DNA of 64,000 nucleotides, taken from NCBI GenBank assembly GCA_937951675.1, contig CALFBI010000006.1:124001-188000 (forward strand). Reading direction: 5' to 3'. Of this stretch, positions 4,232 through 13,585 are shown in pieces; position 1 is the stretch's first letter, and every line of letters begins with the position of its first letter. Made by a program: the position numbers and the translations under genes. The notes below the pieces were generated by a model. The model ran no database searches. It was not told the DNA's origin and saw nothing but the letters and a program-made list of their open reading frames with translations. This DNA is from an uncultured Verrucomicrobiales bacterium. GTDB taxonomy: Bacteria; Verrucomicrobiota; Verrucomicrobiia; Verrucomicrobiales; Akkermansiaceae.

Positions 4232-4645
4232 ATGGATGAACTTTTAGAACGGTGCCGACTGCAAGGGCTAAGGATCACTGATGCTCTCCAAACGATTTTG
4301 CAAACCCTTTTCGAGGCCGACCTCCCTCAATCGATGCAAGATTTAGAAGCTCACCCAACGTTGAGTAAAATCTGTGACCGAGCCACCATCTTTCGAACCC
4401 TACAACGCCTCGAAGGCATCGGGATGCTTCGCAGACTCAATTTTTCACACACAGGGGCTAAATTCACTCTCAATACAGGAGATATGCATAAGGAATACCT
4501 CATCTGCAAAGAATGTGGAGAGGTGCAAGAACTCCAAATGTCCTGCCCTGTCCATGCCTTAGAAAAAAAAATCGAAAAGCTCACGAAGTATTCGGCCATG
4601 ACTCATGAGCTCACTTTCTATGGGCTTTGCCCTCGTTGTGCTTAG
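4232..4645 (+). CDS. zur: Fur-family metalloregulator, probably Zur
   Basis: A 137-residue protein with the Fur fold: an N-terminal winged helix (about 8-80, with the recognition region ICDRATIFRTLQRLEGIGML) and a C-terminal dimerisation/metal domain. Structural zinc ligands are visible as C92xxC95 and C133xxC136, with further His at 86 and 125. It is divergent from the znu operon, which supports zinc rather than iron sensing. The likely action is zinc-bound repression at the two repeats upstream. Its stop overlaps the convergent plsC stop by four bases (4642-4645). Confidence 0.88.
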   Translation: MDELLERCRLQGLRITDALQTILQTLFEADLPQSMQDLEAHPTLSKICDRATIFRTLQRLEGIGMLRRLNFSHTGAKFTLNTGDMHKEYLICKECGEVQELQMSCPVHALEKKIEKLTKYSAMTHELTFYGLCPRCA

Positions 4646-5271
4646 GCCTCTTCTGGGAGCTTCAGCTCCGCAACAGCAGCCATGACGCGATCTGCAACCT
4701 TTTGGTAGCCTTCTTTACTTTTCGCGGCCTTTAACTCTTCTGGTGTTAATTCGAAGGGATCTCCCACCACAATTGTCACCGGCTTGAATTGAATTTTCCC
4801 TTCGCCGCGAGGCAGAGCCTCTCTTGCTCCGAAAATACGAATCGGCTGCACCATCGCCTTACTCTTCACTACCATTAGCCCCACTCCTGGTTGGGCCTGT
4901 TGGATATCCCCATCCAAGGTGCGAGCCCCTTCTGGGAAAAGTAAAACTTGCTCTCCTCCTTTAACCAAATTAATCACCTTTTTCAGGCTATTCATATCAG
5001 GTTTCTCCTGATCGACCGGGATACTACGCCAAAGAGGAAGGAGCCATTTATTAGGACCTTTATAGAGAGTTTTACGAGCGAGATAGTAAATAGGCTCATT
5101 ATATGCGACTCCGATAAAAGGAGGATCCAAAAAACTTTCGTGATTTGCCGCGATGATCACACCTCGATCTGTCACCAATTTTTCAACCCCAACCACGCGG
5201 TAAGAAAAGAAAGAGTCTGCTGCCGCTCGAAAGAACCGGTAACCCATTGAATAAACCCAAGGCATTTTCAT
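4642..5271 (-). CDS. plsC: 1-acyl-sn-glycerol-3-phosphate acyltransferase (PlsC family)
   Basis: About 209 residues with the family motifs NHESFLD (Hx4D catalytic pair) and FPEGARTLDG (phosphate binding). It would acylate lysophosphatidic acid to phosphatidic acid at the inner membrane. The start at 5271 gives an ATGA overlap with cmk and has GGGAG 7 bases upstream; an alternative ATG at 5283 adds four residues. It is the last gene of the tyrA-aroA-cmk-plsC run, an order seen in many bacteria. Confidence 0.88.
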   Translation of the reverse strand: MKMPWVYSMGYRFFRAAADSFFSYRVVGVEKLVTDRGVIIAANHESFLDPPFIGVAYNEPIYYLARKTLYKGPNKWLLPLWRSIPVDQEKPDMNSLKKVINLVKGGEQVLLFPEGARTLDGDIQQAQPGVGLMVVKSKAMVQPIRIFGAREALPRGEGKIQFKPVTIVVGDPFELTPEELKAAKSKEGYQKVADRVMAAVAELKLPEEA

Positions 5272-5927
5272 CTTTGCTCCCATCCCCTTTCTTTTAATTT
5301 TGCTTTCACGGTATCGACTACTTCTGAAATCGTCATCTCTGAACTATCAATCACAACGGCATCCTCAGCCGCCCGAAGAGGAGCCGTTTTACGCTGGGAA
5401 TCTTGTCTATCTCTCTCTGCTACCTGATCGGTGAGACCCTCTGCCGAACGACGAGAAGCCCGGACTTTCTCGGAAGCGGTGATAAAAAATTTATACGGAG
5501 TATTCGGAAAAATAACGGTCCCGATGTCTCGCCCTTCCATCACAAGATCTCCAATGTGAAGAAACTCACGCTGCTTCGAGAGCAGACAATCACGGACTTT
5601 AGGAATCGCCGCAATCGTGGAAACGATCGCATTTACTTCCTTTTCTCGTAAAGCATCTCCAGGGTTCACCCCATTGACTAGAATCACGGAAGCTCCATCA
5701 ACCACTTCGCAGCTCAAATCCCACTTCTCTAAAGAAGCCTCCACTAAAGTGTTCTTTTGAGGGTCGATTCCTTCTTGCTTAACCTTCCATGCGATTGCTC
5801 GATACATCGCACCTGAATTCACCATGATGAGGCCTAGCTGTTTCGCTAGCTGTTTTGCAACGGTGCTCTTACCAGAAGCGGCAGGGCCATCGATCGCAAT
5901 TGCTCTATAGATCGTTTCAGAACTCAT
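5268..5927 (-). CDS. cmk: Cytidylate kinase
   Basis: A 219-residue P-loop kinase that converts CMP/dCMP to the diphosphates. Walker A is GPAASGKST (14-22). The NMP-binding pattern NSGAMYRAIA and the MEGRDIGTVIFP segment are typical of Cmk, followed by an arginine-rich lid (RASRRSAE). The ATG at 5927 overlaps the aroA stop as ATGA. A TTG two codons upstream is less likely. It is coupled to aroA and plsC. Confidence 0.95.
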   Translation of the reverse strand: MSSETIYRAIAIDGPAASGKSTVAKQLAKQLGLIMVNSGAMYRAIAWKVKQEGIDPQKNTLVEASLEKWDLSCEVVDGASVILVNGVNPGDALREKEVNAIVSTIAAIPKVRDCLLSKQREFLHIGDLVMEGRDIGTVIFPNTPYKFFITASEKVRASRRSAEGLTDQVAERDRQDSQRKTAPLRAAEDAVVIDSSEMTISEVVDTVKAKLKERGWEQR

Positions 5928-7231
5928 CCGCAAATCTCTTCGAGGTGATTTTTAAATCCTGGGTAAGAAGTATTAATGCAATCACACCCATGAATCTTCG
6001 TGGTTCCTTTTGCAAATAAACCAGCAATGGCAAACGCCATCGCGATTCGGTGATCACCGTGACTCTCAATCTCAGCAGCCTTCAGAGAAGCTCCTCCCGT
6101 GATCTCCATCCCATCTTCAAATTCTTCGACCTCGACTCCCATTTTACGAAGTCCTTCCACAACCGTGCTGATCCGGTCTGTTTCTTTAACACGTAATTCT
6201 TTGGCATTTCGGATCGTCGTTTTCCCTTGGGCCAAGGCACCGGCGACCGCAATGATAGGAACCTCATCGATCAAATTAGGCACTTCCTCTTTTAAAATCT
6301 CAGTCCCTACTAGGCCCCGTCCATTGACTAAAACATTCCCTACTGGCTCGCCTCGTTCCGCGCCTGAACGATTCGAGTCTTGGATCTCAGCCCCCATCCG
6401 AAGGAGCACTTTAATAATCGCATCACGCGTTGGGTTTAATCCCACGTTCTCGATCACAAGACGTGAATCAGGAATGGCCGCAGCAGCTACGAGCCAAAAG
6501 GCTGCACTTGAAATATCACCGGGGACAAGAAGGTCGGTGCCACGAGGTGTTTGTCCTCCAGGGACGGTGACTTTCAGTCCCTCAACCCCTACTCGAAGCC
6601 CAAACTCTTCGAAAATACGCTCGGTATGATCACGGGTCTGAGCCGGCTGAGTCACACTCGTCTCTCCATCTGCGAAAAGACCTGCCAGCATGATTGCGCT
6701 CTTTACCTGAGCACTCGCCATGGGAAGATCGTAGTGAATCGGATGTAAATTCTCGCCAGAGACGCGAAGCGGTGCACAGCCTTCCTTCTCACCCTCTGCT
6801 TTCAGGATCGCACCCATTTTTGCTAGAGGCGTCATAATCCTCCCCATTGGGCGACCTGACAAGGACTCATCTCCGATCAAAACAGATTCAAAAGGTTGTG
6901 CTGCAAGCACCCCCGCTAAAAGACGCATCCCCGTTCCGGAGTTCCCACAATCAATAGGAGCTACTGACGATTGGGGTTCCATCTTTACCCCAATCACTTC
7001 AATCCCTGTCGGCCCGAGGTCTGATTCTTCGATCACCCGAACCTGCGCGCCCACGGCCTTCATGGCATGAAGCGTGTTTAAACAATCTTCACTCGGGAGG
7101 AAATTAGTAATCGTGCTCTTTCCTTCCGCCAGCCCTGCCAAAATGGCCGCTCGGTGGGAAATGCTTTTATCTCCGGGAACAGAGAATGAGGCATTCAATG
7201 ATGAAATCGATGTAACTGTAATGGTAGACAT
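5924..7231 (-). CDS. aroA: 3-phosphoshikimate 1-carboxyvinyltransferase (EPSP synthase)
   Basis: A 435-residue EPSP synthase of the shikimate pathway. The N-terminal GDKSISHR (20-27) holds the PEP/S3P-binding lysine and arginine. NSGTGMRLLAG, GRPM and the C-terminal SHGDHRIAMAFAIAG are also present, giving two inside-out alpha/beta domains. The start at 7231 (MSTITVTS) lies one base after the tyrA stop; a longer frame running upstream to 7297 would overlap tyrA and is rejected. The S3P made here leads to chorismate, which upstream TyrA uses after the mutase step. Confidence 0.95.
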   Translation of the reverse strand: MSTITVTSISSLNASFSVPGDKSISHRAAILAGLAEGKSTITNFLPSEDCLNTLHAMKAVGAQVRVIEESDLGPTGIEVIGVKMEPQSSVAPIDCGNSGTGMRLLAGVLAAQPFESVLIGDESLSGRPMGRIMTPLAKMGAILKAEGEKEGCAPLRVSGENLHPIHYDLPMASAQVKSAIMLAGLFADGETSVTQPAQTRDHTERIFEEFGLRVGVEGLKVTVPGGQTPRGTDLLVPGDISSAAFWLVAAAAIPDSRLVIENVGLNPTRDAIIKVLLRMGAEIQDSNRSGAERGEPVGNVLVNGRGLVGTEILKEEVPNLIDEVPIIAVAGALAQGKTTIRNAKELRVKETDRISTVVEGLRKMGVEVEEFEDGMEITGGASLKAAEIESHGDHRIAMAFAIAGLFAKGTTKIHGCDCINTSYPGFKNHLEEICG

Positions 7232-7232
7232 T

Positions 7233-8099
7233 TTAAATAGTAGAGATTTGATCTCGTTTTTCTTTTGCGCTGAGCAACCACTTTGAAATGGCCTCAAAAT
7301 TTTGGTTTTGAAGAGCCTCTTGCATAAACTGAAGCTGCTTCTGAGATTCTTGAATGAGTTCTCCTAAGGAGTCTGCATTACTTAGCATAATTTCGGCCCA
7401 CATCGGCACCGGGCCCGAAGCCACTCTGGAAGTGTCTCGCATCCCTCCTGCTGAAAGGTCATAGTCACGAGATTCTTGTAATCCAACATTCGCACAAAGC
7501 GCGGCTAAAAGATGCGGGAAATGAGAAATACGAGCAACGGCGGCATCATGCTCTACCGCACTCATCTGAATCGTGCGACACCCCAGTTGCTGCCAAAAAG
7601 ACTCTAGCTTCTCGACTTGGGCTTCATTCACAGACTCATCATTGGTGATGATACACCCCGCTCCTTCGAAAAGGTCACTTCGGGCCGCACCCATCCCACT
7701 CTGTTCCGAACCGGCCATGGGATGACTTCCGATAAACGAAACGTCTGCTTCTCGACATAGGGAACTCAAAGTTACATGTGGCCGTTTCTTCACTGAGCCA
7801 ACATCTGTTAAAAGGCCCCCTTCGCTTAATAAGCTCAAATGCTCCGGCTGACATAAAGAAGGCATCACCCCCACTGGCACACAGAGAATGACTAGATCGG
7901 CCTCCTGATAAACCTCATCCAAGCTTGAGGTGGTTTTAAAAATGCCTGCTTTTGTAGCGCCCTGGAGCTTTTCTTTCGATCGCCCCCACAGCATGACTTC
8001 AGTCTCAGGTGCTTGCTCCTGTAGCGCTAGAGCAAGAGATCCTCCGAGCACTCCTGGCCCGAGGATTCCTATCTTTTGAAAAGAACAGTTTTGCAGCAT
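7233..8099 (-). CDS. tyrA: Prephenate dehydrogenase (TyrA family)
   Basis: About 288 residues. The N-terminal Rossmann fold has the NAD(P) motif GILGPGVLGGS (11-21); GSHPMAGSEQSG is the prephenate-binding loop of the family, followed by the all-helical dimer domain. It converts prephenate (or arogenate) to 4-hydroxyphenylpyruvate (or tyrosine). The ATG at 8099 has GGGAAG upstream; a TTG at 8117 would add six residues. It heads the aromatic amino acid/lipid run with aroA, cmk and plsC. Confidence 0.92.
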   Translation of the reverse strand: MLQNCSFQKIGILGPGVLGGSLALALQEQAPETEVMLWGRSKEKLQGATKAGIFKTTSSLDEVYQEADLVILCVPVGVMPSLCQPEHLSLLSEGGLLTDVGSVKKRPHVTLSSLCREADVSFIGSHPMAGSEQSGMGAARSDLFEGAGCIITNDESVNEAQVEKLESFWQQLGCRTIQMSAVEHDAAVARISHFPHLLAALCANVGLQESRDYDLSAGGMRDTSRVASGPVPMWAEIMLSNADSLGELIQESQKQLQFMQEALQNQNFEAISKWLLSAKEKRDQISTI

Positions 8100-8171
8100 A
8101 CTTCTTCCCAGCTTCAAGACGATTTCAAGAACTGGGTCATGTTTCGGAAAGCCAGAAAAGCTTTGCGAAAA

Positions 8172-8633
8172 TTAAGGGACAAGAAAGATATGTGATTTAT
8201 CGGAATCAAGTGGGTCTCGCACTTTTGTCCCGCTTGCTAATCCTCGCACATCAACTTTATTTCCAGAATGGGGGCTGTAGATGAAACCTGCTTTTCCTGC
8301 CACTTTTGTTCCTGTTTTGTAAGCTTTCTTGATCGCTTGTGGCTTCGGGAGTGAACTCTCACCAGCTGTTTTCTTATACTGAGGCTTCGGGGGTAAGGTT
8401 GGTTTAGAAGCCGCTTTTTTTACCGTGCGTTGTGTCGCCTTGATTTGATCTCTAGCTGCAGCTTTCTGGCTTTTATAAGTCACTGGGTTTGCCACTTTCT
8501 TATCCGTCTTAGTAATGGCCTCTTCTTGTGGCTGCTGCACAGGAGGCACCGGTAAATCGAAAGGATAAGGGGAGCAACTCGTCATCGCTAAGGCGATCAC
8601 GACAATAGGGGTCATGCAGAATGCTAATTTCAT
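8172..8633 (-). CDS. Small Lys-rich lipoprotein of unknown function
   Basis: A 153-residue protein with a signal peptide ending in a lipobox-like MTSC (Cys at about 20), so it is probably a lipoprotein. A Lys/Ala/Pro-rich low-complexity middle follows. The conserved-looking C-terminus (GNKVDVRGLASGTKVRDPL ... IFLVP) resembles the ends of short exported proteins I associate with Verrucomicrobiota (from memory, not searched). Function is unknown. The basic middle could interact with peptidoglycan or nucleic acid, but this is speculation. It lies upstream of tyrA with a 72-base gap. Confidence 0.65.
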   Translation of the reverse strand: MKLAFCMTPIVVIALAMTSCSPYPFDLPVPPVQQPQEEAITKTDKKVANPVTYKSQKAAARDQIKATQRTVKKAASKPTLPPKPQYKKTAGESSLPKPQAIKKAYKTGTKVAGKAGFIYSPHSGNKVDVRGLASGTKVRDPLDSDKSHIFLVP

Positions 8634-8787: not shown

Positions 8788-9984
8788 TTAACCTTTTTTG
8801 CTGAGCCAGCGGTTAACGAAATCCTTACCACCAAGGCCAATTGAAATGGCACCACCGAGGCCAAGTGCTACTGCTGCTGCAACAAGCGCGTATTCGTATG
8901 GTTTTGTGAAGAGGTCACCTGCAATTTCAGTTCTTTGGATCGCAACCATTGAAGTCAGGAAGATAATCGTATACTTCGCAACTTTCGCGAGAGTGATATT
9001 CTTATCAGCAAGGTTATCGTATGCGAAACGTGACGCAAGAAGACCACCACCGAAAATCAAGAGCGCAAGGAGGATCTTAAGGTATCCAGGAACAAGACCT
9101 TCTGTAAGGTCACTGATGATTGGAAGCTTAAGGCTAGAAAGCGCGGTTGAACCGATAATTACAATAAGACTTAAGAAAACGATGAAGCTCACGATGCTTG
9201 AAACCGAACGGCTTCCTTCCGTAGGAACGTTCAATCCAACTTTTGCAGGGAAAGAGTCAACTCCTCCAGCTAAGAGAAGGTTTTTGATCAACTTCTGAGC
9301 AATTTGGGCAACGAGCACTCCAATCGCAAGAAGAACACCAGCGAGAAGGATATTAGGAACAGCACCTGTTATGCTTTTCACAATGTCACCAATCGGCTTT
9401 GAGATCGCCTCAATTCCAAGAGCGTCGAGGGCTGCCGGAGTAACGAAGAGAAGCACTAGACTAAAGAGAACAACTCCAAGAGCATCTGCAATTGGTGTCT
9501 CTGCTGTATTACCAAGACGAGCATCAAGACGTGCCGCATTGCAGCAGCTTACAACAAGTTGACGAACAATCTTAGCGAGGAAAATTCCAACAAAAAGAAT
9601 AACAGCAGCTCCAATGATATTAGGTAAGAAATTTAAAATCTTCCCGAACATCTCACGAAGTGGCTGAGTCACTTGATCCAAGCCTGCAATATCGAGCGCG
9701 AAAAGAAGAACGAAGAGAAGAACGAAACCGTGAACAATACCACCGATTGTTTTTTCTACCGAACTCCCTTCTGAACCAACATATTTTGCCAGTTTGTTAT
9801 CTAACTCGGTTTTACCAAGAGCTTTGCTGGTGAGAGATCCGATTCCTTTTGCTATAAATTTACCAATGAGGAAAATTACAAGAGCTAAGATATATTTGCC
9901 TGCGCCACCAAAAACCTGAAACCATCCTTGGATAGATTCGGAAATTTGAGCGAAGTTTGATGCTGATTCAGCTAATACGTTCAT
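8788..9984 (-). CDS. Multi-pass membrane protein with conserved TM-helix repeats (CmpX/MscS-like)
   Basis: About 398 residues, with roughly ten hydrophobic segments arranged as repeats of the 'conserved TM helix' type found in CmpX-like relatives of mechanosensitive channels. The pore-helix-like Gly/Ala pattern recurs (for example IIGAAVILFVGIFLAKIVRQ and ILLAGVLLAIGVLVAQIAQK). I see no cytoplasmic MscS beta domain after the last membrane segment; the protein ends about 15 residues later. The ATG at 9984 is preferred over a longer frame to 10032. It is a single gene with a terminator at 8723-8757. A role in osmotic or envelope stress is inferred. Confidence 0.75.
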   Translation of the reverse strand: MNVLAESASNFAQISESIQGWFQVFGGAGKYILALVIFLIGKFIAKGIGSLTSKALGKTELDNKLAKYVGSEGSSVEKTIGGIVHGFVLLFVLLFALDIAGLDQVTQPLREMFGKILNFLPNIIGAAVILFVGIFLAKIVRQLVVSCCNAARLDARLGNTAETPIADALGVVLFSLVLLFVTPAALDALGIEAISKPIGDIVKSITGAVPNILLAGVLLAIGVLVAQIAQKLIKNLLLAGGVDSFPAKVGLNVPTEGSRSVSSIVSFIVFLSLIVIIGSTALSSLKLPIISDLTEGLVPGYLKILLALLIFGGGLLASRFAYDNLADKNITLAKVAKYTIIFLTSMVAIQRTEIAGDLFTKPYEYALVAAAVALGLGGAISIGLGGKDFVNRWLSKKG

Positions 9985-10121
9985 TTTATTTCGTTGTGTT
10001 GTGTAAGGTTGAAAATGATCGCCATTCATCAACTGGCCTCATTCCGCTCTTAAAGATAGATAAAACGCCTGAAAAGTCACAGTTTTCTTTTCATTTGCCC
10101 CTTTTTTTTCAGTCTCTCTTC

Positions 10122-11159
10122 ATGTCACTCCCCGATAGACATAATCAACAACACCTCTCTGCCCAACATTTATGTCGAGAGAGCGCTTGTGATTTTAATA
10201 AAGAGGCCCTTTCTTTATGGCGTTGGCAGCTGGAGAACAATGATGAGCTCAATGCTTATTCATCCCTATGTGACAAAAACCATGTGAGCTGCTGGAAGCA
10301 AATTCCTCCTATTCCAACGACCGTTTTCAAACACCCTAACCTTTTCCCCTTTTGCTTTCCTCGTGAAGAAAGTCGTCACCGTTTTCTTACCTCTGGAACC
10401 ACGAGTGAAATTCACGGCCAAATGCACTGGCGCACTCTCGAGACTTATGAATGTGCTCTCTGGCAAGGATGGTTAGATGCTAAGCTCCCCACCCACCTTC
10501 AACCTGTTTTTCTTTGCCCAGAACCAGAACCAGACAGTGAATCTTCTCTGCATTGGATGTTTCTCACGCTCTCCAGAAAATTTGAGCAACCTGCAAAATG
10601 GATTGTCAGCAAAGATGGTCACTGTCTAACCGAGCAGCTTTCTCACCTTTGTAAAAAAGGAAAACCTCTGTTCCTCCTCGGCACCGCCTTGTCTTACCTC
10701 CACTGGATGAAACACTCCCCCTCTCCGCTCCCGGCAGGATCTTTTCTTTTAGAAACAGGTGGATACAAAGGGCTCCGTAAAAAATATTCGAGACAAGAAC
10801 TCTACCCTCAACTCCATTCTTTTTTTGAGATTCCGTTCGTAAACATTATTAACGAATACGGAATGACCGAGCTCAGCTCACAATGCTACGCCCGTGGAAT
10901 GAGCAGCTGTCACCGGACTCCTCCCTGGATGAGAGCCCTTGTCATCAACCCTCACACTCAACAAGAATGCGAACGAGGAGAAATGGGGTATCTTGCTTTA
11001 TACGACCTCGCTAATGTTGACAGTGTCCTCGGTCTTTTTACGCAAGACTTTGCGATCGCATTTAACGATCGAGAATTCGAACTCATCGGGCGAGATCCTG
11101 AAGCCAGCGCACGAGGGTGCTCCCGAAGCTCTGACCAACTCATGTCGCCAGACCTATGA
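10122..11159 (+). CDS. LuxE-family acyl-protein synthetase-like protein
   Basis: A 345-residue adenylate-forming protein. It has TSGTT (90-94, ATP phosphate loop), ETGGYKG (211-217), NEYGMTE (244-250) and the C-terminal GRDPEASARGCS (323-334), whose ARGCS is the LuxE hallmark. LuxE activates a fatty acid with ATP and passes the acyl group to LuxC for reduction to aldehyde. The next gene is LuxC-like and overlaps it as ATGA. No luxA/B luciferase or luxD thioesterase is in the window, so the product is probably an aldehyde or alcohol for another purpose. The start at 10122 is chosen because the longer frame would run into the divergent gene. Confidence 0.82.
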   Translation: MSLPDRHNQQHLSAQHLCRESACDFNKEALSLWRWQLENNDELNAYSSLCDKNHVSCWKQIPPIPTTVFKHPNLFPFCFPREESRHRFLTSGTTSEIHGQMHWRTLETYECALWQGWLDAKLPTHLQPVFLCPEPEPDSESSLHWMFLTLSRKFEQPAKWIVSKDGHCLTEQLSHLCKKGKPLFLLGTALSYLHWMKHSPSPLPAGSFLLETGGYKGLRKKYSRQELYPQLHSFFEIPFVNIINEYGMTELSSQCYARGMSSCHRTPPWMRALVINPHTQQECERGEMGYLALYDLANVDSVLGLFTQDFAIAFNDREFELIGRDPEASARGCSRSSDQLMSPDL

Positions 11160-12169
11160 ATATCGAAATCCTCTTAGAACTCCATTCTCTTTTCGAGCCT
11201 TATACAGGAAGCTATAACCGTGACTCACTTTCCTTATGGGTGAAACAAGAGCTCACCCCGCCCTCCTTAGAGGTGAGCCCACTTTTTCCTGAACGATCTC
11301 TCCACGTTATTTCTAGTAACACTCCACACGCCGCTTTTCAAACCCTTTGGAAAGCATTGCTCATTGGGAAACAGCACTTTTTCAAACTTCCTCAAAATGG
11401 CGTCGACGGATGGGAAGATCTCTACGAGGCGATCCCTCTCACATATCGCACTCACTGGGAAACCTCACTTGAGATTCGCCCTCATTGGTTAGAATCACTC
11501 GACCTTGCTATCATCTACGGCAGCCATAATACCATTCAAGAATTCCGACAAACCCTGCACCCTTCCACTAAACTCATTGAGCATGGGCATCGCCTCGGGA
11601 TCGGCATCATTACTAGCCCCTCTCAAGGAGCCGCGAAAAGGGCGGCTCTAGACATCACACAACACGATCAAAAAGGGTGCCTTTCCGTTCACCACCTCTA
11701 TGTCACTGGAGACCTTGAGCCATTTGCAAAACAACTCGAAACAGCGTTTCAACAATACCCTCCGATGAAGCTCACCGCCTCGGAAGCGGGGGCCGTTTCT
11801 CATTTCAGAGTTTTAAACACCTTTTGCGAAGCTAACCTTAAAGACCGGCACCTCATCGCTAGTCCTTCCTGCGAAGGGTATACGATCCTTACTACAACAA
11901 AAATGGCTATCGAACCCAGCCCAGGATACCGGACTGTCATTCTTCATCCGTATCAAGAACCTCTTGATCAAGCAAAACTTGGCCCAGAAAGTGCCTATCT
12001 TTCAACCGTAGCGATTGAGCCCTATGAACACTCCTTACAACAACAAGCCCTGAAACTAAGACCTACCCGAATTTGCGCCCTTGGCACCGCACAAGCCCCA
12101 CCCTTTCATGCTCCACATGATGGCTACCTCTCTTTACAATCGCTTGTGCATTGGGTCCAACTTCAATAA
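11156..12169 (+). CDS. LuxC-family acyl reductase-like protein
   Basis: A 337-residue protein of the acyl-CoA/acyl-protein reductase (LuxC) family, which transfers an activated acyl group to a cysteine and reduces it with NADPH to a fatty aldehyde. The segment LDITQHDQKGCLSVHHLYV carries the candidate nucleophile Cys175. VYGSHNTI-like (IIYGSHNTI, about 119-127) and EHGHRLGIGII are family features. It is shorter than luminous-bacteria LuxC (about 480), lacking part of the N-terminus. It is translationally coupled to the LuxE-like gene by ATGA and followed 15 bases later by an IF-1-like gene. Confidence 0.8.
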   Translation: MNIEILLELHSLFEPYTGSYNRDSLSLWVKQELTPPSLEVSPLFPERSLHVISSNTPHAAFQTLWKALLIGKQHFFKLPQNGVDGWEDLYEAIPLTYRTHWETSLEIRPHWLESLDLAIIYGSHNTIQEFRQTLHPSTKLIEHGHRLGIGIITSPSQGAAKRAALDITQHDQKGCLSVHHLYVTGDLEPFAKQLETAFQQYPPMKLTASEAGAVSHFRVLNTFCEANLKDRHLIASPSCEGYTILTTTKMAIEPSPGYRTVILHPYQEPLDQAKLGPESAYLSTVAIEPYEHSLQQQALKLRPTRICALGTAQAPPFHAPHDGYLSLQSLVHWVQLQ

Positions 12170-12184
12170 CTTTTACCTCATCTC

Positions 12185-12400
12185 ATGGAACAACCTATCT
12201 CCACCACCGGAACCTTAATGTCCCAGCTGAGCCCTGAACACGGCGAAGTCTCTCTTTCAAATGGAAAAATCGTCTACGGGCACCTTTCTCGCGAACTTAA
12301 AAGAGCTTCTTTTGATTGGAAAGAAGGAGGCATCGTCCTCCTTGAAATGACGATCTACGATTTCGACAAAGCCCGAATCACTGGATACAAAGAAAACTAA
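12185..12400 (+). CDS. Divergent IF-1-like S1/OB-fold protein
   Basis: A 71-residue protein that aligns without gaps to translation initiation factor IF-1 over about 65 residues. Shared positions include GT-(V/L), L-NG, H-(I/L)-S, V-E-T, YD and K-RI. The basic cluster IF-1 uses to contact the 30S A site (KMRKNYIR in E. coli) is here ELKRASFD, so it may be a paralogue rather than the main IF-1. It is cotranscribed with the LuxE/LuxC-like genes (15-base gap). The function is uncertain; the fold assignment is strong. Confidence 0.7.
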   Translation: MEQPISTTGTLMSQLSPEHGEVSLSNGKIVYGHLSRELKRASFDWKEGGIVLLEMTIYDFDKARITGYKEN

Positions 12401-12503: not shown

Positions 12504-12580
12504 TGGCGGAGCGGACGGGACTTGAACCCGCGACCCCCGGCGTGACAGGCCGGTGCTCTAACCAACTGAGCTACCGCTCC
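12504..12580 (-). tRNA. tRNA-Asp (GTC)
   Basis: A 77-base cloverleaf. The acceptor GGAGCGG pairs with CCGCTCC, followed by discriminator G and an encoded CCA (12506-12504). The D arm begins TAGCTCAGTTGGTTAGAGC, the anticodon loop CTGTCAC has anticodon GTC (12546-12544), and the T arm GCGGGTTCAAGTCCCGT is canonical. It lies between the IF-1-like gene and fabD, oriented opposite to the former. Confidence 0.97.
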
Positions 12581-12661: not shown

Positions 12662-13585
12662 TTAGAGGCTCTCAAGTGCTACCCGCAGACTCGCATCGTC
12701 TTCGATTGCTAAAACCTTGGCAGCCTTATCGATACGCCCCATTAAGCCTGTTAAAACTTTACCAGGACCCAACTCAATAAAAAGCTCATGCCCCTCATTG
12801 CGCAACAACTGCATCGACTCTGTCCAGCGAACAGAGCCTGTTACTTGACGAGTTAACGTCTCTCTAATCTCTTCAGCACTAGAAACAGACTGCGCTGAGA
12901 AATTACAAATCACAGGCACTTTTGGCTGATGAGGAATGACTTCAGATAATGCCTTCGCCAGCTTTTCTTCAGCACTGACCATGAGGCGAGAGTGATAAGC
13001 CCCGGCTACTTTCAAAGGTTTCGCCATTCGAATCCCTTTCTCTTTAGCTCCTGCGACTGCTTTCTCGATTCCAGCCACATTTCCAGAAAGAACGATTTGT
13101 CCTGGCGCGTTGAAATTAGCGACATCGACATCACAGGCTACGGCGAGCTCTTTGACCGCGGCTTCATCACCTCCAATCATGGCGGCCATCCCCCCTTCTG
13201 TCTGAGAACAGGCTTCGTCCATGAGTTCTCCACGGCGTGCGACAATTTTAAGCCCTTCTTCAAAATCAAAGCTTCCTGCGGCTGTATGAGCGGTCATTTC
13301 CCCAAGAGAAAGTCCTGCTGTTGCCACCATTTCGAGATCTGGGCGGTGTTTCTCTAAAACGACTTTCAAAGCTAAACCGTGAAGGAACAAAGCGGGCTGA
13401 CAATTCGCCGTTTTCGTTAATTCCTCTTCAGGTCCCTCAAACATAATTTGAGTCAGACGACGGCCTAAAATCTCATCAGCCCGATCGAACATCTCCTGCA
13501 CCTCAGGGTAAGCCTCATAGAGATCTTTCCCCATGCCTACTTTTTGAGCCCCCTGACCGGAAAATAAAAAAACAGCTTTATTCAT
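12662..13585 (-). CDS. fabD: Malonyl-CoA:ACP transacylase
   Basis: A 307-residue FabD that moves malonyl groups from CoA to acyl carrier protein for fatty acid synthesis. FSGQGAQKVGMG opens the fold. The nucleophile elbow is GLSLGE with Ser92; Leu replaces the more usual His before Ser, a variant I recall from plant-type and other bacterial enzymes. The catalytic His is in GAYHSRLM. The length is normal. It stands alone, without acpP or fabG next to it, and the tRNA-Asp promoter lies just past its stop. Confidence 0.94.
   Translation of the reverse strand: MNKAVFLFSGQGAQKVGMGKDLYEAYPEVQEMFDRADEILGRRLTQIMFEGPEEELTKTANCQPALFLHGLALKVVLEKHRPDLEMVATAGLSLGEMTAHTAAGSFDFEEGLKIVARRGELMDEACSQTEGGMAAMIGGDEAAVKELAVACDVDVANFNAPGQIVLSGNVAGIEKAVAGAKEKGIRMAKPLKVAGAYHSRLMVSAEEKLAKALSEVIPHQPKVPVICNFSAQSVSSAEEIRETLTRQVTGSVRWTESMQLLRNEGHELFIELGPGKVLTGLMGRIDKAAKVLAIEDDASLRVALESL

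Follow-up and report, generated by a model that had tools for sequence, protein, structure and literature searches.

The window analysed here is a stretch of 64,000 nucleotides from an uncultured Verrucomicrobiales bacterium (contig CALFBI010000006.1). Three closely spaced genes on the plus strand constitute the module of interest, and the module and its flanks contain the following features.

4642–8633, minus strand: left flank, plsC-cmk-aroA-tyrA-small protein (cmk and tyrA named by eye from the sequence)
8788–10032, minus strand: mechanosensitive channel, flanking and outside the module (NF033912, 178.4 bits)
10122–11159, plus strand: LuxE-like acyl-AMP-forming ligase/acyl-protein synthetase, 345 aa, assigned by profile and motifs (ATG 10122, TGA 11159)
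11156–12169, plus strand: LuxC-like acyl reductase with an aldehyde-dehydrogenase fold, 337 aa (ATG 11156, TAA 12169)
12185–12400, plus strand: IF1L, a diverged IF-1 (infA) paralogue, 71 aa (ATG 12185, TAA 12400)
12504–12580, minus strand: tRNA-Asp(gtc), right flank
12662–13585, minus strand: fabD (ACP S-malonyltransferase), convergent right flank (TIGR00128, 310.4 bits)

The luxE and luxC genes overlap in an ATGA, and the IF1L start codon lies 15 bases past the LuxC stop. Re-reading of the sequence reproduces these junctions as the initial annotation described them, together with the three plus-strand frames, the TSGTT and ARGCS motifs and Cys175. Promoter and terminator scans of the locus gave counts no higher than expected by chance. 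The genome to which the window belongs (2.05 Mb in 28 contigs) has a single LuxC match and a single LuxE match in profile searches. The flank of plsC, cmk, aroA, tyrA and the small protein gene is present at approximately 23 of 40 clustered loci and marks the ancestral position of the luxE-luxC locus; the relatives in the scan of named loci are all Verrucomicrobiota, and many of them are Akkermansiaceae.

The product of the second gene scores well above the Pfam cut-off for LuxC (PF05893, 90.1 bits against 21, E 1.9e-25), and its family profile matches 7xc6_A, the LuxC chain of the LuxC-LuxE complex, at 5.1e-34. The predicted structure (mean pLDDT 91.9) superimposes on 7xc6_A with a Z score of 30.4 and an rmsd of 2.8 over 328 residues, with other aldehyde dehydrogenases reaching 24.6 at most. 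Cys175, within the sequence GCLS, is invariant in all 22 rows of the LuxC alignment (22 of 40 sequences) and lines up with the Photorhabdus, Azospirillum and Pantoea homologues; its DQxxCxS context is present and aligns with DQQACFS of 7xc6, and it is the predicted catalytic, acyl-carrying cysteine. The N-terminal ~100 residues of the lux-operon LuxC of Photorhabdus are missing, and the window proteins fall far below the NCBIfam lux equivalog cut-offs NF052251 and NF052244 (38.4 of 750 and 36.1 of 550 bits respectively), such that the substrate could differ.

LuxE is more weakly matched as a single sequence, with 24.1 bits against Pfam PF04443 (E 1.9e-5), 0.8 bits short of the cut-off of 24.9. 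The weak single-sequence scores of both LuxE and IF1L (see below) are settled because the respective family profiles match 7xc6 LuxE and E. coli IF-1; that of LuxE matches 7xc6_E at 1.9e-25 over residues 34-369, a span that takes in the GCS at the C-terminus. The TSGTT loop lies at residues 90-94 and ARGCS at residues 330-334, and Cys333 is invariant in the 20 rows of the LuxE alignment (20 of 28 sequences). Cys333 aligns with its counterparts in Photorhabdus LuxE, 7xc6_E and the Azospirillum and Pantoea homologues, and we predict that it is the acyl-carrying cysteine of LuxE.

Profile searches of 142 related genomes place LuxE in all 40 of those with LuxC and in one of the 102 that lack LuxC. 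LuxE is upstream of LuxC on the same strand and within 3 kb in 29 of the 40; in the remaining 11 the two genes are apart or on separate contigs, yet both are present. A wider draw of 387 genomes from the phylum yielded LuxC-profile matches at E<=1e-20 in 17, and three of these 17 encode LuxE and LuxC as single fusion proteins of 829-840 aa (L259 3740-6229, L260 7869-10358 and L261 8510-11032). In the one fusion that was scanned, the two Pfam domains exceed their cut-offs (265.6 and 266.2 bits), and the fusions form a distant subfamily (profile E 4e-21 to 9e-21). From the co-inheritance and the fusions we conclude that LuxE and LuxC are a functional pair, whose likeliest activity is the reduction of (fatty) acids at the expense of ATP and NAD(P)H.

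Several variations in arrangement were seen. In one genus-level group LuxE (L193, L195, L197, L198) lies at or near the ancestral site and LuxC (L053, L066) elsewhere; in some members the displaced LuxC is accompanied by IF1L and selB, and in some LuxE precedes a Fur-type regulator and suf-like genes. At locus L105 (5570-7986) of a relative, small genes that appear to resemble toxin-antitoxin pairs are situated between or beside LuxE and LuxC, and four loci (L250-L253), from a different family of the same class with genomes of 2.2-2.5 Mb, have LuxE-LuxC without an IF-1 gene.

The initial annotation reported no luciferase at the locus and proposed that the aldehyde serves a use other than light, and both statements are upheld. 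The bacterial luciferase family (PF00296, the luxA/B search) has no match in the window's genome at E<=1, the same search being positive in 10 of 14 control genomes, and it is found in 3 of the 40 LuxC-bearing genomes versus 42 of the 102 others. With nearly all carriers devoid of this family, the aldehyde must therefore have another use, and light production is unlikely. Fe-alcohol dehydrogenase was considered as a partner marker, and is present in 134 of the 142 genomes and so uninformative.

Lipid- or envelope-type genes are neighbours at some of the loci, and these vary by lineage. They include a desaturase and an AMP-ligase (L137), a lipid A acyltransferase (L257) and, at a Prosthecobacter-named locus, kdsA upstream of LuxE (L092, 5862-6683); plsC and fabD are near the pair in the window. 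The commonest flank, plsC-cmk-aroA-tyrA, may be only synteny. These neighbours, together with a published liposugar proposal (see below), favor a lipid-like envelope compound as the product, and any naming of the particular compound would be of low confidence.

IF1L scores below cut-off with both Pfam eIF-1a (27.3 bits, E 2.7e-6, cut-off 30.2) and NCBIfam IF-1 (29.5 bits, cut-off 61.15), and another gene of the same genome, a canonical infA, scores 92.5 bits on the latter scale. The IF1L family profile matches E. coli IF-1 at 6.9e-19. In a structure search with the predicted model (pLDDT 94.0), IF-1 chains take ranks 1-13 with TM scores of 0.74-0.88 over the whole length, and by profile and predicted OB fold IF1L is a true IF-1 homologue. 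Residues R41, K42, R46 and R70 (E. coli numbering), in what we take to be the ribosome-facing helix and C-terminus of IF-1, are replaced in most IF1L proteins (23 of 24 are in the IF1L alignment). Position 41 is Arg in 9 of 9 Verrucomicrobiales-type canonical rows and in 39 of 39 other infA rows, some of the latter being the same gene reached via two loci, and in 45 IF1L rows its commonest letters are T, K, A, Q and E; identical sequences within a group were removed for this comparison. The net charge of the helix region has a median of 0 in IF1L versus 4-5 in infA, and, as aligned, IF1L is without these presumably ribosome-facing basic residues.

A tree of IF-1 proteins (62 rows, 72 columns kept, built by a quick method and carrying a long-branch warning) unites IF1L from beside LuxC, from beside selB and from stand-alone positions under one starred branch (99) apart from canonical IF-1, and these 62 rows do not resolve the parent infA of IF1L. 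The simplest history, suggested by gene order only, would be an old luxE-luxC-infA cluster; in one order its infA copy would have diverged away from its function on the ribosome, and most lineages would have lost LuxE-LuxC. A second, diverged IF-1 is seemingly present in nearly every sampled genome of the order, with or without LuxE-LuxC (the window, L206-L208, L210, L240 and L243-L249). Elsewhere a canonical-looking infA follows LuxC (L111, L121, L135, L151 and others), starting 4 bases past the stop in several instances, and these genomes often have 2-3 infA genes.

The initial annotation linked the IF-1-like gene to luxE and luxC as a trio and left the linkage unexplained. Among 80 named loci, 73 have enough upstream sequence, 71 enough downstream and 64 both, with short-flank loci left out; the order luxE-luxC-IF-1-type gene is kept at 34 of the 64, and this conserved order is not chance. 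IF1L or a canonical infA is beside LuxC at 44 of the 71 loci with sufficient downstream sequence, and in 12 of 44 sequences read at such loci the gene looks canonical (6 from Chthoniobacter or Chthoniobacterales, 1 from Spartobacteria and 5 with broader or other names); two or more infA matches are present in 11 of these 12 genomes, although some of the matches are weak or interrupted by a stop. In the 40 LuxC genomes IF1L is adjacent to LuxC on the same strand in 24 (in one of them 1.9 kb off) and is not beside it in 16. The linkage is thus real and old in many relatives, but it is not obligatory, and a functional trio finds no support in the distribution of IF1L.

At least two matches to the IF-1-type profile are found in 136 of the 142 genomes versus LuxC in 40, and most of these genomes are without LuxE-LuxC. 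In a sample of LuxC-lacking genomes, 11 contain a gene that is IF1L-like by sequence (L207, L208, L210, L240, L243-L249); 2 of 10 fetched profile-match stretches held canonical infA instead of IF1L. Furthermore, IF1L is directly upstream of selB in at least 31 of 59 genomes with SelB matches over cut-off, at least 12 of them without LuxC, a count that was taken from the upper part of the list of IF1L-profile matches and is thus a lower bound. Examples of this adjacency are L043, L047, L053, L066, L068 and L207. The full order luxE-luxC-IF1L-selB occurs in at least four genomes, with the identity of SelB confirmed for one. SelB accompanies LuxC in 31 of 40 genomes versus 28 of 102 others (Fisher p 1e-7), a figure that ignores kinship and from which we draw no inference; no SelB match over cut-off is present in the window's genome. 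Linkage to LuxC alone is no proof of a common function, and the case for a functional trio is weakened by a distribution of IF1L that is its own; the plain reading is probably that of a diverged IF-1 paralogue, retained independently in the adjacent position, and IF1L is probably a neighbour of LuxE-LuxC and no subunit of it.

On balance we favor, with reasonable but not high confidence, a reading in which LuxE-LuxC is a two-enzyme carboxylic acid reductase, most likely acting on long-chain fatty acids, with a product destined for an envelope lipid or glycolipid and with IF1L as a separate neighbour. Its computed basis consists of the homology, both cysteines, the LuxE-LuxC co-inheritance, the fusions, the absence of luciferase and the independent distribution of IF1L. 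At the expense of ATP, LuxE would form an acyl-AMP and then attach the acyl group to its C-terminal Cys333, from which it would be handed to Cys175 of LuxC; reduction of this thioester by LuxC with NAD(P)H would give the aldehyde, both cofactor and substrate being presumed. The aldehyde, or an alcohol derived from it, would most likely enter an envelope lipid or glycolipid. The IF1L gene would be an ancestral neighbour in a luxE-luxC-infA arrangement, with selB sometimes next in the window's family.

Other fates of the product have to be weighed against this. An aldehyde or alcohol made for a surface glycan, by analogy with flagellin glycosylation islands, would account for the sugar transferase, DegT, polysaccharide-synthesis, ACP-like, AMP-ligase and Fe-ADH genes at the fusion loci L259-L261, and both the Azospirillum and Pantoea plasmids and the Aeromonas and enterobacterial islands combine luxE and luxC with a 3-oxoacyl-ACP reductase gene, the islands also with ACP (PMC7874193, PMC4875605). 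We regard this as unlikely for the window, however, as no glycan cluster is beside its pair or recurs among the 40 clustered loci, and the fusion proteins belong to the distant subfamily noted above. The known uses of fatty aldehydes and alcohols, namely plasmalogens or other ether lipids, wax esters and light, offer further alternatives, which we consider very unlikely here. The CarF-type plasmalogen route (PF10520), the one ether-lipid route that the search covers, shows no correlation with LuxE-LuxC (2 of 40 LuxC genomes versus 11 of 102 others) and is absent from the window's genome; wax synthase (PF03007) has no match in any of the 142 genomes, a weak result since the controls were silent too; and light is countered by the scarcity of the luciferase family among LuxC carriers.

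IF1L could also be a partner of LuxE-LuxC, contributing an OB-fold subunit to the complex or regulating the luxE-luxC transcript by binding RNA. The adjacency in 24 genomes, its retention in differing surroundings, the LuxC-infA adjacency that extends to Chthoniobacter-type loci, and the lost ribosome-facing residues, which make a new partner plausible, all lend something to this. They are offset by the 11 IF1L-like sequences from LuxC-negative genomes, by the 16 genomes in which LuxC is away from IF1L, and by the frequency of IF1L beside selB, which (at least 31 genomes) is no lower than that beside luxC (24 genomes), and we therefore hold such a partnership to be distinctly improbable. A more ambitious proposal is that IF1L is an order-wide neofunctionalised IF-1, off the ribosomal A site, that binds RNA, as a partner or a regulator, within an ancestral luxE-luxC-IF1L-selB cluster. 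This we rate as a long shot; if true, acid reduction and selenocysteine translation would be under one control element.

With LuxE-LuxC preferred as an acid reductase and IF1L as its neighbour, the chemistry of bacterial light appears here as an inseparable enzyme pair, kept in a group whose carriers are nearly all devoid of luciferase-family genes. Two points of interest remain. One is the use of the aldehyde, which can now be put to the test in Persicirhabdus sediminis, Rubritalea marina or other named strains. The other is what IF1L does: a second IF-1 in nearly all examined genomes, with its ribosome-facing charges lost and often beside selB, raises the question of what function is left to an IF-1 apparently unsuited to the ribosome.

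The closest known system is the LuxC-LuxE fatty acid reductase of Photobacterium phosphoreum (PDB 7xc6), which resembles the window's pair in that both chains are matched, the LuxC fold is shared, both cysteines are aligned, and the two proteins always occur together. The gene order differs from that of the lux operon, being E-C rather than C-D-A-B-E and without luxAB, and identity to the Photorhabdus proteins is only ~21% for each of LuxC and LuxE, with the LuxC shorter at the N-terminus by the ~100 residues noted above. IF1L shares the whole-length fold of IF-1 (infA), and differs in its lost basic residues and in scores below the cut-offs. A search of titles and abstracts of open-licence papers found none on LuxE-LuxC or an IF-1 paralogue in Verrucomicrobiota. 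Azospirillum and Pantoea plasmids (L219, L220) have LuxE-LuxC and a 3-oxoacyl-ACP reductase gene with no luciferase annotated nearby. Luciferase-free LuxE-LuxC is described from flagellin glycosylation islands of Aeromonas (PMC7874193) and of enterobacteria (PMC4875605), in both cases with a liposugar suggested by the authors. These islands resemble the window in that non-luminous bacteria carry LuxE and LuxC but no luciferase, and differ from it in that the window's pair has no adjacent glycan, ACP or 3-oxoacyl-ACP reductase genes. Luciferase-free LuxE-LuxC is thus already published, and the window is another lineage of a known kind.
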